From NCBI RefSeq assembly GCF_002119765.1, contig NZ_CP021112.1:4458501-4522500 (forward strand): a stretch of 64,000 nucleotides of DNA, in the 5' to 3' direction. A program made the position numbers and the translations under genes. Positions within the stretch are counted from its first letter, which is position 1; every line of letters starts with the position of its first letter. Under the pieces are notes generated by a model that was not told the DNA's origin, did no database searches, and saw only the letters and a program-made list of their open reading frames with translations. Shown here piece after piece: positions 50,925 through 61,422 of this stretch. Origin of the DNA: Pseudorhodoplanes sinuspersici (GTDB taxonomy: Bacteria; Pseudomonadota; Alphaproteobacteria; Rhizobiales; Xanthobacteraceae).

Positions 50925-51035
50925 GCGACACCTCCCTGAAGACAATTAAGAACATAACAAGAACATTTATATTCTGTCATCAGGAAAGTGTTAGCGGCTT
51001 TCTGTGGCGAACCGGAGAAGCCACAAGCGGAATGA

Positions 51036-56409: not shown

Positions 56410-56877
56410 TCAGGAGACCTCGAACATCCCCTCGACTTCAACGGCCGCATCCATCGGCAGCACCGAAACGCCGATCGTGCTGCGCGCATGCCGGCCCTTG
56501 TCGGCGAAAGCGGTGACCATGAGGTCGGAGGCCCCGTTCATAACCTTCGGGGAATCGAGGAAGGTTGGATCTGCATTGATGAAACCGCCAAGGCGGACGA
56601 CGCGCACGACCTTGTCGAGGTCGCCCAAGGCGGCCTTGATCTGTGCCAGTACATTGACTGCGCAGGCGCGGGCAGCCTTCTGTCCGTCCTCGATCGAGAC
56701 ATCGGCACCGAGCTTGCCTTTGGCCACCAACTTGCCATCGGCATCAAGGCAGAGCTGACCGGACACCACCAGCAGATTGCCGGTGCGAACGAAGCCGACA
56801 TAATTGGCGACTGGAGCCGCAGGCGTCGGCAACACGATTCCGAGATCGACCAGCTTTTTCTCGACGGCTCCGGCCAT
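56410..56877 (-). CDS. RidA family protein lacking the catalytic Arg
   Basis: The 155-residue protein has the RidA/YjgF fold with GNLLVVSGQLCLDADGK near the N terminus and GFINADPTF. In active RidA an Arg binds the carboxylate before the VEVE-type strand; here that position reads STIGVSVLPMDAAVEVEG with Val instead of Arg. So imine deaminase activity is doubtful and a different function is likely. It is the first gene of the operon with GDPD, FemAB-like and HIT. Confidence 0.87.
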   Translation of the reverse strand: MAGAVEKKLVDLGIVLPTPAAPVANYVGFVRTGNLLVVSGQLCLDADGKLVAKGKLGADVSIEDGQKAARACAVNVLAQIKAALGDLDKVVRVVRLGGFINADPTFLDSPKVMNGASDLMVTAFADKGRHARSTIGVSVLPMDAAVEVEGMFEVS

Positions 56878-57022
56878 TCGTTCCTCCTGCGCCGCATGCG
56901 CCTCACAATGGACGTATTCTCTTCGCCGATTGGGACCCTATCCGCAAGTGTCCAAGGCAAGTATCCAAGACAGTTGCAGCAACCCGGTGGCAATTCTATC
57001 TTCGGTGCCGCGAGGATTCCTC

Positions 57023-57892
57023 ATGACTGATACGCGTTTGGATTGGTGCACGGCCGTTGCTGTGGTGGCGTTGTCGGCCGGTCTTGCCGGAGCGGCTCCC
57101 GCACAAAAGACGGACGTGCCGAAGCCGGACGTGGTGGAATTCGTCCCGCATCGTGCGGTCTATGACCTCAAACTGTCGTCGGCGCGTGGCAACCGCCCGG
57201 TCGAGTCGGTTCGCGGCCGCATCCTCTATGATTTTTCTGGCAATTCCTGCGAAGGCTATGCGCTGCAATTCCGTCAGGTATCGGAAATCGATGCCGGCGA
57301 GGGCAGCTTGATGACGACGGATATGCGCGCCACCACGTGGGAAGATGCTGCCGCCAAGACCTTCCGTTTCAACTCGCAAAACTACATCGATCAGAAGCTG
57401 AAAAGCGCAGTCGATGGCCGTGCCGAACGCAATGGCGCGAAGGTCGGCGTCAATCTGAGCAAGCCGGCCTCAAAGAAATTCGGTATCGATTCGGGCGGTA
57501 TCCTTTTCCCCACCGATCACATGCGCCGCATCATCGTCGCCGCGCGGGCCGGGCAATCCTTATTGCAGGGCCCGGTCTTCGACGGCTCGGAAACCGGCGA
57601 CAAGGTCTATGAGACGCTGAGTGTGATCGGCCCGGTGATCGAGCCTGAGACGCGTAAGCCTGAGGACGCGGCCGCGAAAGACCAAACGCTTTCGAAGATG
57701 CGGCGCTGGCCGGTCACCATCAGCTATTTCGATCGGTCGAAGGCGGGCGGCGAGCAGACGCCGGTTTATTCGATCCGGTTTGAATTATACGAGAACGGCA
57801 TTTCGCGCGCGTTGTCGCTCGACTACAACGATTTCGTTGTGGCCGGCGAAATGACCTCGCTGGAAGTGCGTCCCGCCAAGCCCTGCAAGTAA
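57023..57892 (+). CDS. eipB: Cell envelope integrity protein EipB (DUF1849)
   Basis: EipB is a periplasmic beta-spiral protein needed for envelope stability in Brucella. The 289-residue protein has a signal peptide (about 8-28), the DUF1849 pattern with VPHRAVYDLKLSSARGNR and NSCEGYALQFRQ, and the two conserved cysteines, Cys76 and Cys288, which form a disulfide in the family. The second Cys is in the terminal PCK. ATG at 57023. A tandem 15-bp repeat starts inside the last codons. Confidence 0.9.
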   Translation: MTDTRLDWCTAVAVVALSAGLAGAAPAQKTDVPKPDVVEFVPHRAVYDLKLSSARGNRPVESVRGRILYDFSGNSCEGYALQFRQVSEIDAGEGSLMTTDMRATTWEDAAAKTFRFNSQNYIDQKLKSAVDGRAERNGAKVGVNLSKPASKKFGIDSGGILFPTDHMRRIIVAARAGQSLLQGPVFDGSETGDKVYETLSVIGPVIEPETRKPEDAAAKDQTLSKMRRWPVTISYFDRSKAGGEQTPVYSIRFELYENGISRALSLDYNDFVVAGEMTSLEVRPAKPCK

Positions 57893-57923
57893 CAAGCCTG
57901 CAAGTAACAAGCCTGCAAGTAAG
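57882..57923. repeat. 15-bp tandem repeat at the eipB stop
   Basis: CCTGCAAGTAACAAG at 57882-57896 and 57897-57911, then CCTGCAAGTAAG. The unit is 15 bases, in frame, so each copy carries its own TAA after a Cys-Lys pair: stops at 57890, 57905 and 57920. Confidence 0.92.
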
Positions 57924-57937
57924 ATTGCGCCATTGCG

Positions 57938-59206
57938 CTAGCGCTCGCCATCCTCGTCGAAGCCGATCCCGCGTATGATCGAGCCGCGCCCGAATTTGGC
58001 GCGCAGCACGTCGAGCGTGCGCTCGCTGGCGGCGGCCTTGCGCCCCTTCGGATCAAGCAGGTCATCGGGATCGGCCACGTCCGATGGCTGCAGGTGTGAG
58101 ACGCCAATGCCGATCAGGCGGAATTTTGTGCCATCGATCTCGCGGGCCAGGAGATCACGCCCGCAGTCGAAGATCCGTTTGGCAAGTTGCGTCGGATCGC
58201 TCAGCGATCGGGCCCGGGTTCGGATCTGGAAGTCGGTACTTTTAAGTTTCAGGGTCACGGTCGAGCCACTCAGCGCCTTGGCCTTCAAACGCGCGGACAC
58301 GCGGTCGCTCAAATCCCACAGGATCTTCTCCAGCGGCCGCATCGCGCCGATGTCGTGATTGAACGTGGTTTCGGCGGAAATGCTCTTGGCGTCCCGGTCC
58401 GGCACCACCTTGCGGTGGTCGATACCGCGGGACAGGCGGCTCAGACGCTGGCCTTCCGAGCCCAGCTGCCGCATCAATTCCGTCTCATCGTATTTCTGCA
58501 GGTCGGCGATGGTGCGAAAACCATCGCGGGCCAGGCGCTCCTGCGCCACCTTGCCGATACCGAAGATGACCGAAATCGGCTTTTGCGCAAGGAAACTCGC
58601 GGCTTCCGCACGCCCAAGCACAGCAAACCCACGTGGTTTGTCGAGCTCGGACGCGATCTTCGCCAGGAACTTGTTGTAGGACAGGCCGATCGAAACCGTA
58701 ATCCCGATCCGCCGCTCCACCTCCATCGCAAACTGCGCCAGCGACTTTGCCGCACTCCGGCCATGCAGCCGCTGGGTGCCGGACAGATCGAGAAACGCCT
58801 CGTCGATCGAAAGCGGCTCCACCAGCGGCGTGAGATCGCGCATGATGGTGCGGACCTCCCGTGCGACCTCGACATATTTCGCCATGTTCGGCTTGACGAT
58901 TGTGGCGTCTGGGCAGAGCTGCCGGGCCTTGAACATCGGCATTGCCGAATGCACCCCATAGGTCCGCGCGATATAGCAGGCCGTCGACACCACCCCGCGC
59001 GTGCCGCCGCCAATGATCAGCGGCTTGTCGGCCAATGACGGATCATCCCGCTTCTCGATCGTGGCATAGAAGGCATCGCAATCGATATGCGCGACCGAGA
59101 GTTCCGCAATCTCGGGGTGCCGGAGCAGGCGAGGCGAGCCGCAAGCCTTGCAGCGGCCGGCGGGACCAGCCTCCACAATGCAGTCACGGCAAAAGCCAGG
59201 AGTCAT
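57938..59206 (-). CDS. dinB: DNA polymerase IV with N-terminal zinc ribbon
   Basis: The 422-residue Y-family polymerase has an N-terminal Cys4 ribbon (Cys6, Cys9, Cys19, Cys22), then the catalytic core with [13 protein letters not shown] (Asp42, Asp44) and SIDEAFLDL (Asp-Glu), and a little-finger domain. It copies damaged templates with low fidelity. The zinc ribbon is a Rhizobiales trait. ATG at 59206 is the last of three interlocking ATGA junctions created by a 17-bp duplication. Confidence 0.92.
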
Positions 59207-59240
59207 GGACAGCCTTGGGTCATGGACAACCTTGGGTCAT
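59203..59240 (-). other. Two interlocking six-codon micro-ORFs in a 17-bp tandem repeat
   Basis: On the minus strand, two near-identical 17-bp units, ATGACCCAAGGTTGTCC (59240-59224) and ATGACCCAAGGCTGTCC (59223-59207), each open with ATG and read Met-Thr-Gln-Gly-Cys-Pro-stop. The first ATG overlaps the stop of the DUF3572 gene; its own stop overlaps the second ATG, whose stop overlaps the dinB ATG. Each unit has AAGG 6 bases before the next ATG, a fair ribosome site. Coupling by termination-reinitiation is inferred. Confidence 0.7.
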
Positions 59241-59536
59241 GGCGTATCGCGTTCCCAATCGCGGCCGGCGAGCGCTTCGCGAGCGGCGAGAATGCTCGCT
59301 GGCTCGTGAGCCGTTTCCGCCGCAAATGCCAGCATGACGGATTCATTATTGGCGAGGTGATCGAGCACGCCGGCAAGGAACAGCGGTTCGCGCGCGGCGG
59401 CCCTAATGTCGCCCGGACCGATTCCAGTTGAAGCAAGGAATAAACCCAGTCGCTCGGGGTCTGAAGCAATGAAGCTAAGTGCTTGGACTGCCACAGTTTC
59501 GGCGGCTCTGTGTGTCAGCTTTACCTTGTTCGCCAT
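59237..59536 (-). CDS. DUF3572 family protein
   Basis: The 99-residue protein has the DUF3572 pattern: ETVAVQALSFIASDPERLGLFLASTGIGPGDIRAAAREPLFLAGVLDHL (as short segments ALSFIASDPERLG, TGIGPGDIR and FLAGVLDHL). It is soluble, helical and of unknown function in alphaproteobacteria. Start taken at ATG 59536 (MANKVKLTHRAA); ATG at 59584 is possible. Its TGA at 59237-59239 overlaps the first micro-ORF. It probably forms an operon with dinB. Confidence 0.85.
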   Translation of the reverse strand: MANKVKLTHRAAETVAVQALSFIASDPERLGLFLASTGIGPGDIRAAAREPLFLAGVLDHLANNESVMLAFAAETAHEPASILAAREALAGRDWERDTP

Positions 59537-59664
59537 CTGGTTGTGTTTGCCTTTCCGTAACACATCAGCATTACCGTGATTCATAGCCCGAACCCGCATT
59601 TTGGCGAGGGGCACAATGCCTCGGATCACTGGGCGAGGTAAGAATAGCCCGGGAGGGGCGGTGA

Positions 59665-60036
59665 ATGGCCAAGACTGTCCTGATCGTGGAGGACAATGAG
59701 CTCAACATGAAGCTCTTCCACGACCTCCTGGAAGCGCACGGTTATCAGACCATCGGCACCCGGAACGGGATCGATGCGATGGACCTTGCGCGGCAGCATC
59801 GGCCCGATTTGATTCTCATGGATATTCAGCTGCCGGAAGTGTCTGGCCTCGAAGTCACCAAATGGCTGAAGGACGATGCCGAACTGAAAGCCATTCCGGT
59901 GGTCGCGGTCACCGCTTTCGCCATGAAGGGCGATGAGGAGCGCATCCGGGCTGGTGGTTGCGAAGCCTATCTCTCGAAGCCGATTTCGGTCGGCAAGTTT
60001 ATTGAAACGATCCGTCACTTTCTCGGGAATGCATAG
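59665..60036 (+). CDS. divK: Single-domain response regulator DivK
   Basis: DivK is a receiver domain that controls the CtrA pathway and the cell cycle in alphaproteobacteria. The 123-residue protein has the phospho-accepting Asp53 in [10 protein letters not shown], the acidic pair EDN near the N terminus, the conserved Thr in [16 protein letters not shown] and Lys in YLSKPIS. GGGAGGGG upstream of ATG at 59665. pleD follows 12 bases later, the usual divK-pleD pair. Confidence 0.95.
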
Positions 60037-60048
60037 GGAATTCGCCGC

Positions 60049-61422
60049 ATGACCGCGCGCGTCCTCGTTGTTGATGATGTACCGGCTAATGTGAAACTGC
60101 TTGAGGCACGGCTGTCGGCTGAATACTTCGACGTGACGACGGCCCATAGCGGTGCCGAGGCGCTCGCCGCCTGTGAGCGCGCCGAATGCGATATCGTCCT
60201 GCTCGATGTGATGATGCCGGACATGGATGGCTTTGAGGTATGCCGCCGGCTGAAGAGCAATCCGGCGACGCATCATATCCCGGTGGTGATGGTGACGGCG
60301 CTCGATCAGCCGTCGGATCGGGTGGCGGGTCTTCAGGCTGGCGCCGACGATTTCCTGACCAAGCCGGTGTCGGACATCGCTTTGATTGCCCGCGTAAGGT
60401 CGCTGACCCGCCTGAAAATGATGACCGACGAATTGCGCATGCGCGCGGTCACGTCGCGCGAGATCGGCATCGAAAGCGCCGAACGCGAATCGATCATGGA
60501 GCCGGGGCAGGGCGGCCGCATTCTGATCGTCGACGATCGTCGCTCCTCCTATGAGCGGCTCGCTTCGATGCTCGAAAAGGATCATGTGGTCGACATCGAG
60601 CCAGATCCGAGCGCGGCCTTGTTCCGGTCGGCCGAAGGCAATTACGAGTTGATGATCGTGTCGCTGAGCCTTGAGAATTTCGATGGCCTGCGGCTGTGCA
60701 GCCAGTTGCGCTCGCTCGATCGCACGCGCAGCCTGCCGATTCTCGCCTTGTGCGAGCCCGATGACAACGCCAAGCTCATGCGCGGCCTGGAAATCGGCAT
60801 CAACGATTATCTGTTGCGTCCGATTGATCGTAACGAATTGCATGCTCGCGTGCGCACGCAAGTCCGCCGCAAGCGCTATACCGAACGCTTGCGCGACAAC
60901 GTGCAGATGTCGATCGAAGCGGCGATTACCGACGGACTGACCGGCCTGCATAATCGCCGCTACATGGAAAGCCATCTTGGCAAGCTGGTCGAGCAGGCAA
61001 CATCGCGCGGCAAGGAACTTGCGGTTCTGGTGCTCGACATCGATTATTTCAAATCGATCAATGACAATTACGGGCACGATTGCGGCGACGATGTCCTGCG
61101 CGAATTCGCAATCCGCGTGCGCAAGTCGATCCGCGGCATCGATCTGGCTTGCCGGATGGGCGGTGAGGAATTCGTCGTTGTCATGCCGGAAACGGACATG
61201 GCGGTTGCTGCGACTGTTGCCGAGCGTCTTCGCCGCCGCATCGCGGCGGAGCCTTTCCCGATCGAGCAGGGCAACCGGATGGTCGATGTCACCATCTCAA
61301 TCGGGATCGCGACGCTGGAATCACAGCACGACAATGCCACGCAGATTCTGAAGCGGGCCGACCAGGCGCTGTATCGCGCGAAGCGCGACGGACGAAACCG
61401 CGTCGTGGCGGACGCCGCTTAG
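60049..61422 (+). CDS. pleD: Diguanylate cyclase response regulator PleD
   Basis: PleD makes cyclic-di-GMP at the pole during the swarmer-to-stalked transition. The 457-residue protein has two receiver domains, the first with Asp53 (LLDVMMPD), the second degenerate, and a C-terminal GGDEF domain. The active site is GGEEF (about 371-375) and the inhibitory I-site RGID lies five residues before it (RGID-LACRM-GGEEF). Allosteric product inhibition is thus likely. It is in the divK operon. Confidence 0.95.
   Translation: MTARVLVVDDVPANVKLLEARLSAEYFDVTTAHSGAEALAACERAECDIVLLDVMMPDMDGFEVCRRLKSNPATHHIPVVMVTALDQPSDRVAGLQAGADDFLTKPVSDIALIARVRSLTRLKMMTDELRMRAVTSREIGIESAERESIMEPGQGGRILIVDDRRSSYERLASMLEKDHVVDIEPDPSAALFRSAEGNYELMIVSLSLENFDGLRLCSQLRSLDRTRSLPILALCEPDDNAKLMRGLEIGINDYLLRPIDRNELHARVRTQVRRKRYTERLRDNVQMSIEAAITDGLTGLHNRRYMESHLGKLVEQATSRGKELAVLVLDIDYFKSINDNYGHDCGDDVLREFAIRVRKSIRGIDLACRMGGEEFVVVMPETDMAVAATVAERLRRRIAAEPFPIEQGNRMVDVTISIGIATLESQHDNATQILKRADQALYRAKRDGRNRVVADAA

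Follow-up and report, generated by a model that had tools for sequence, protein, structure and literature searches.

The minus strand of the window (the whole 64-kb stretch of DNA that was analysed) carries a DUF3572 gene (PF12096) at 59237..59629 and, downstream of it, dinB, encoding DNA polymerase IV of 422 aa, at 57938..59206. Both were recognized by Pfam, dinB through its IMS and IMS_C domains. The DUF3572 coordinates correspond to the longest ORF, opening at GTG 59629, and the true start may lie downstream, e.g., at ATG 59536. The gene ends with GAT ACG CCA TGA (Asp-Thr-Pro-stop), where the stop codon occupies 59239-59237 and the last A of CCA forms an ATGA together with the TGA. The ATG overlapping this stop opens micro-ORF 1 (59220..59240, minus strand; ATG ACC CAA GGT TGT CCA TGA), the stop of micro-ORF 1 is overlapped by the ATG (59223) of micro-ORF 2 (59203..59223, minus strand; ATG ACC CAA GGC TGT CCA TGA), and the TGA of micro-ORF 2 overlaps the ATG of dinB (59206). 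Read on the minus strand downward from 59242, the junction is CCATGACCCAAGGTTGT / CCATGACCCAAGGCTGT / CCATGACTCCTGGCTTT. The two Met-Thr-Gln-Gly-Cys-Pro ORFs and the three consecutive ATGA junctions described in an earlier note on this DNA are both borne out by the sequence, as is the position of an AAGG 6 bases ahead of the second and the third ATG (59230..59233 and 59213..59216, minus strand), while the pairing of these motifs with the 16S rRNA is weak. The displacement of dinB by 34 bases given in the same note holds as the summed length of the two repeat units, not as the gap from the DUF3572 stop to the dinB ATG, which is 30 bases. A further motif, GGGAA, is found within Trp-Glu-Arg codons of DUF3572 (59252..59256, minus strand), now upstream of micro-ORF 1, and is likely the Shine-Dalgarno site of an ancestral overlap.

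In regard to the surroundings, a LexA-type box (GAAC-N7-GAAC) was not found near the DUF3572-dinB operon, and one is present at 50950 in the window. Divergent from DUF3572 lies a response-regulator gene (59665-60036, plus strand; Pfam Response_reg), followed by an ORF (60049-61422, plus strand) in which receiver-like and GGDEF-like sequences can be discerned by eye, in an order resembling divK-pleD. At the other end of the operon, a 15-bp unit is repeated three times at 57877-57922, over the end of a plus-strand ORF (56804-57892) convergent with dinB, and these units encode Cys-Lys-TAA in one frame, giving three serial stops.

The start of dinB is set, as stop-start coupling demands, by evidence independent of the overlap. 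From the preceding stop to the Cys-Arg-Asp-Cys motif near the DinB N terminus, ATG 59206 is the sole in-frame ATG, GTG or TTG. Of the 240 junctions surveyed below, 239 have CRDC and the remaining one has CKDC at this place, in a survey that kept only rows with a motif of the Cys-Arg-Asp-Cys type. The codon score alone favours GTG 59176, and this candidate was rejected because it would remove the conserved motif.

The micro-ORFs coincide with a 17-bp tandem array at 59202..59242 (minus strand), composed of two near-identical units and a diverged third copy corresponding to the head of dinB. The two units share 16 of 17 bases, while the dinB head matches unit 2 at 13/17 and unit 1 at 12/17 positions and thus looks like a third, diverged copy. 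Tandem Repeats Finder reports the same interval (59202-59242, period 17, 2.4 copies) with a score of 75, the second-highest of 19 rows for the window. The repeat itself is not due to chance. No other adjacent pair of 17-mers with at least 16/17 identity occurs elsewhere in the 64-kb window. In the 5.97-Mb genome the unit has two exact matches, both within the array, and 14 places lie within three mismatches of it, compared with 16 for a backward control pattern. As this whole-genome search, made with a mobile repeat in mind, gave no exact copy outside the array, the unit represents a local duplication and not a dispersed element.

The state from which the array arose can be read from relatives. 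In the genus set of eight genomes, which includes the window's own (G000, L001 in the wider survey), five genomes (G001, G004, G005, G006 and G007) have a direct NTGA overlap without any 17-bp unit, while DUF3572 was not found in the other two (G002 and G003). The head of dinB in G001 matches units 1 and 2 at 13/17 and 14/17 positions, and the best of 131 directly overlapping relatives reaches 12; because the G001 head resembles the units better than any of these rows, the units may preserve an earlier version of the dinB head, with dinB's own copy having changed since. The G001 junction (L006; G001:C142:2774-4032) was read separately, its dinB match being split between two frames around residue 35, which by its sequence appears to be a frameshift or an assembly error.

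Beyond the genus, the family search gave matches in 382 of 391 genomes, and 30 of its loci were examined along with 100 fetched regions. Matches were obtained in 356 of the 397 genomes of the order search, where 30 loci were likewise examined along with 80 fetched regions, and 80 named loci were also taken in. A first survey, where the DUF3572 stop was placed by extending BLAST matches, gave 191 distinct junctions, with 11 chains among 188 usable. The second survey, where the stop was placed by profile, comprised 369 loci, of which 291 underlie 240 distinct junctions; the excluded loci had no DUF3572 match (68, of which 54 came from the order search and its regions), no dinB match (7), or no Cys-Arg-Asp-Cys in the tested frame (3, all G001). 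One locus, L195, is a chain in the first survey and none in the second, the stop placement being different, and the second survey is used here. Among the 240 junctions, 131 overlap by NTGA with the start in frame with dinB (117 GTGA, 11 ATGA and 3 TTGA), 12 have TGATG or TAATG, 13 contain closed micro-ORF chains, and 84 have neither an overlap nor a chain. The NTGA overlap is present in 123 of 190 junctions known from before the order search and in 8 of the 50 first met in it, and is mainly a trait of the family. An ancestor with a direct overlap, as the earlier note assumed, therefore agrees with all five readable junctions of the genus and with 131 of the 240 surveyed, mostly from the same family. 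Its derivation of the present state by duplication is likewise supported. The comparison of unit numbers which it called for gave zero units in the five readable genomes of the genus.

Junctions of other relatives exhibit further structures. In four related loci (L177, L199, L200 and L211), decayed repeats are present at the junction, DUF3572 ends in TAA or TAG, and the overlap is lost. Spacers of 208 and 221 bases between DUF3572 and dinB in L093 and L205 contain inverted repeats whose arms match exactly over 18 and 17 bases, respectively, and which have ATTTGAAGTTCCTAC in common, a pattern that would fit the insertion of related palindromic elements at this junction in each of two genera. 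The spacer of L213 holds about four copies, counted by eye, of a motif of ~35 bases (gagcgacctgcgggcgccctacatcaggagaa).

With regard to the consequences of the duplication, one explanation starts from the reading frame. The DUF3572 TGA is now in the same frame as dinB, and the frame past this TGA continues into the dinB frame, so readthrough of TGA-C could produce a DUF3572-DinB fusion whose frames were matched by the two 17-bp units. One in three insert lengths would, however, bring the frames into register anyway, and none of the 131 relatives with a direct overlap could form the fusion by readthrough alone, as the four-base overlap sets dinB in another frame. We regard this explanation as very improbable.

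A different course of events is suggested by the overlaps themselves. In the ancestor, DUF3572 and dinB would have shared a four-base NTGA, with the Shine-Dalgarno site in the 3′-terminal part of DUF3572. Duplication of 17 bp at this overlap would have followed, and one of the copies was presumably duplicated again later. Because 17 equals 3n+2, the ATG of each unit opens a six-codon ORF that closes at the TGA of the next unit. A ribosome finishing DUF3572 could therefore re-initiate at the overlapping ATG, translate Met-Thr-Gln-Gly-Cys-Pro, re-initiate for a second time, translate the second Met-Thr-Gln-Gly-Cys-Pro and reach the dinB start, whereby the 30-base gap, expected to uncouple the genes, would become three four-base overlaps. 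The yield of dinB would probably be below that of a direct overlap, since each hop should lose ribosomes. Judging by the sequence, the chances that such a micro-ORF relay hands ribosomes from DUF3572 to dinB after duplication of the NTGA overlap appear evenly balanced, and it is plausible that the relay keeps dinB coupled. It is favoured because a bare 30-nt gap should largely uncouple dinB and because dinB's own Shine-Dalgarno site is weak. In E. coli gene pairs, the last 15 nt of the upstream gene were sufficient for re-initiation, while an additional 14 nt cut re-initiation by 40-80% and an additional 38 nt nearly abolished it (PMC10666635). This distance limit is not absolute, as one gene pair in the same work bridged 15 nt well and re-initiation across a 73-nt gap was found in other studies (as cited in PMC10666635).

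The relay has to be weighed against neutral slippage, according to which the length of 3n+2 came about by luck, dinB starts alone from the AAGG supplied by the unit, and the micro-ORFs are inert. We consider this quite possible, if somewhat short of probable. Slippage arrays are ordinary in this genome, 30 of period 8-40 being present in 464 kb, including one at the junction of two called genes on the same strand, and the unit does bring an AAGG at a workable spacing. Moreover, 84 of the 240 relatives do without an overlap or a relay; given this number and the NTGA overlap in only 8 of 50 junctions from the order search, coupling looks dispensable outside the family. On the other side stands the pairing with the 16S tail, which before dinB amounts to -3.4 kcal/mol in the window's genome, against a median of -8.2 kcal/mol for the dinB start region at the 131 direct overlaps. 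Multi-step closed chains in three separate lineages at one junction also speak against pure neutrality.

The pairing energies of the relays follow a similar course in part of the cases. In the genome under study they are -5.4 before micro-ORF 1, -4.4 before micro-ORF 2 and -3.4 kcal/mol before dinB, a modest contrast between the first start and dinB. In the other relays the values before micro-ORF 1 and before dinB are, respectively, -8.2 and -4.7 kcal/mol in L138, -6.9 and -4.9 in L146, -8.4 and -3.5 in L152, -8.2 and -4.0 in L072, and -8.2 and -2.2 in L207, so that these five together with the window's genome have the better site before micro-ORF 1, a point in favour of the relay. In L266 they are -8.2 and -6.7 kcal/mol. 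The opposite trend is found in L337 (-7.5 and -9.2), in L099 (-4.8 and -6.0), and in an Afipia group (L071, L095, L114 and L281; -3.3 and -8.8 kcal/mol), where dinB, to judge from these values, probably starts independently.

It is also conceivable that the inserted units serve as a brake, where the short reading frames, with their less common codons (TGT and CCA) and a Pro before each stop, would slow ribosomes or lose them and thus reduce the synthesis of an error-prone polymerase. Across 58 long ORFs of the genome, CCA accounts for 14% of Pro codons and TGT for 27% of Cys codons, and every hop adds to the distance between dinB and the better Shine-Dalgarno site. Proline before a stop codon can slow termination. 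The last codon of DUF3572 (59237-59242 region) is Pro in 117 of the 131 direct overlaps, compared with 19 of the 84 junctions without an overlap or chain, and a terminal Pro occurs in 1 of the 58 long ORFs of the window's genome, hence CC-NTGA may be a slow-termination element copied by the units. This association is confounded by kinship, and the trend may come from a constraint on the protein, from kinship or from such an element. Weaker dinB expression could be reached more simply by mutating the Shine-Dalgarno site, and we find the brake improbable.

Whether the relay is peculiar to this genome can be assessed from the other chains. Multi-step chains are present at 3 of the 240 junctions, namely at the one described here (two units of 17 bp), in L138 (three of 11 bp) and in L146 (two of 14 bp). 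The chain in L138 runs through Val-Arg-Cys-Pro, Met-Arg-Leu-Pro and Val-Arg-Phe-Pro into dinB, and that in L146 through Val-Lys-Asp-Leu-Pro and Val-Lys-Asp-Ser-Pro, ending in TGATG. The nearest relative of L138 in the set (L037, 83.1%) has a plain ccGTGAgcttc, whose dinB head the L138 unit resembles, while the nearest relative of L146 (L144, 92.7%) has a plain cccTGATGg, and the L146 unit resembles the DUF3572 tail. The two relays thus arose separately, one from the dinB side of the junction and the other from the DUF3572 side. These independent multi-step relays in two further lineages are among the new findings. Slips of 13 or 19 bp involving the NTGA at the junction and the CGTGAC within the Cys-Arg-Asp-Cys codons, later trimmed, were also considered as a sole route to the relays and set aside as unlikely, because the L138 and L146 units directly resemble the dinB head and the DUF3572 tail. 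One-step chains were detected at 10 of the 240 junctions (L152, L072, L207, L099, L071, L114, L281, L095, L337 and L266, the last with 25 codons). In L152, and in L072 and L207, which are sisters of each other, the junction is 14 bases longer than in directly overlapping relatives, and these three, as well as L099, were counted as chains by frame geometry, whatever their origin.

The formation of such chains follows a length rule. For a duplicated unit bearing NTGA to close an ORF, its length has to be 3n+2 and the frame free of earlier stops, whereas a unit of 3n extends dinB in frame and a unit of 3n+1 opens a frame running beyond the dinB start; a 13-bp duplication in L167 is not closed. 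Closed frames are therefore automatic for about one unit length in three. That the steps of closed chains are all 3n+2 is true by definition and gives no evidence of selection, and this point was dropped as support for the relay; the informative quantity is the frequency with which inserts close.

As a control, a simple codon-score gene caller was run on 464 kb of this genome, made up of the window and 20 further stretches of 20 kb each, resulting in 403 genes and 234 same-strand pairs, of which 230 were usable. These 230 junctions include 53 direct overlaps, 11 one-step closed micro-ORFs and no multi-step chain, as counted by a crude caller which left the window DUF3572 uncalled (score 14.7 against a cut-off of 15), so that the relay under study is absent from the control, and which probably under-counted other small genes too. 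One-step closure is not enriched at the DUF3572-dinB junction (10/240 compared with 11/230), as neutral slippage would have it, and the one-step relays may be due to chance. Closed chains taken together do not differ either (13/240 and 11/230; p = 0.84), and for multi-step chains the comparison of 3/240 with 0/230 gives p = 0.25. If the comparison is limited to stops overlapped by a start in another frame, 13 of 26 cases are closed at DUF3572, compared with 9 of 42 control cases (p = 0.018), and after merging of sisters (L071/L114/L281 and L072/L207) the former ratio becomes 10/23 (p = 0.09). At short distances, the limits of which are not identical between the two sets, closure is found in 12 of 18 and in 8 of 22 cases, respectively (p = 0.11), or in 9 of 15 against 8 of 22 with sisters merged (p = 0.19). 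These data agree with selection for closure, short of proof. The suggestion of the earlier note that copy number tunes the dosage of dinB is not supported, as 17-bp junctions with one or three units were absent from the genomes surveyed and one-step relays are equally frequent at ordinary junctions of the genome.

A broader reading, which we consider unlikely yet far from negligible, is that micro-ORF relays recurrently repair a lost overlap, with selection keeping 3n+2 inserts since these preserve coupling. It would cover the 17 bp repeated twice here, the 11 bp three times in L138, the 14 bp twice in L146 and the single 14-bp steps of other loci. If true, it would describe an adjustable, insertion-tolerant coupling element built from the junction and not from a mobile repeat. 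Coupling by overlap is very common yet looks fragile, since inserted bases would be expected to disrupt the junction, and a chain of micro-ORFs is one way in which an insertion could be tolerated. The simple rule that 3n+2 closes and 3n+1 does not could be applied to many overlapping gene pairs. Furthermore, if the relay works, it would offer a natural ladder for counting serial re-initiations, situated ahead of the gene for an error-prone polymerase.

Among known systems, stop-start overlap coupling is treated as standard in passages of PMC6728339. In the junction described here the upstream stop overlaps the next start at all three ATGA, each a standard four-base overlap (coupling being recognized at -4 or -1), and the plain form is present in relatives. 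In contrast to the plain form, two six-codon ORFs intervene, so that three serial events would be needed. Short ORFs delivering the ribosome to the next gene are described in passages of a review (PMC12548453), and in synthetic nonsense-ORF boosters (PMC13255528) and bicistronic designs the end of a short ORF likewise feeds the next start. Unlike these synthetic constructs, the relay is natural, has two ORFs in series and is fed by an upstream gene, and its AAGG motifs, with a weak pairing of -4.4 and -3.4 kcal/mol, differ from the strong ribosome site that the boosters carry in their leader. The mgtQ ORF between mgtC and mgtB of Salmonella is also an intergenic short ORF affecting the translation of the next gene, but according to the abstract and headings of PMC8092293, where a stop-start chain is not mentioned, it acts via RNA structure and ribosome-destabilising acidic residues. 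In the literature as covered by titles and abstract openings, a micro-ORF chain at stop-start junctions was not described, and the one paper found to mention DUF3572 is a microproteome preprint.

A description of insertion sites was not found in the searched literature on MIRUs, a family of mycobacterial repeats. MIRUs insert at DTGA sites, and at senX3-regX3 tandem MIRU units of 77 and 53 bp, both 3n+2, are present. As portrayed in passages of PMC12548453, these repeats insert at start codons and contain an ORF with coupling at -4 nt. The 17-bp repeat shares this geometry, and only this, as it too contains an ORF whose end stands at -4 nt to the following start. Whereas MIRUs are dispersed and seemingly mobile, the 17-bp unit is local, far shorter and looks derived from the junction itself. 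MIRUs are the nearest parallel to the 17-bp relay, though the relay is not a MIRU.
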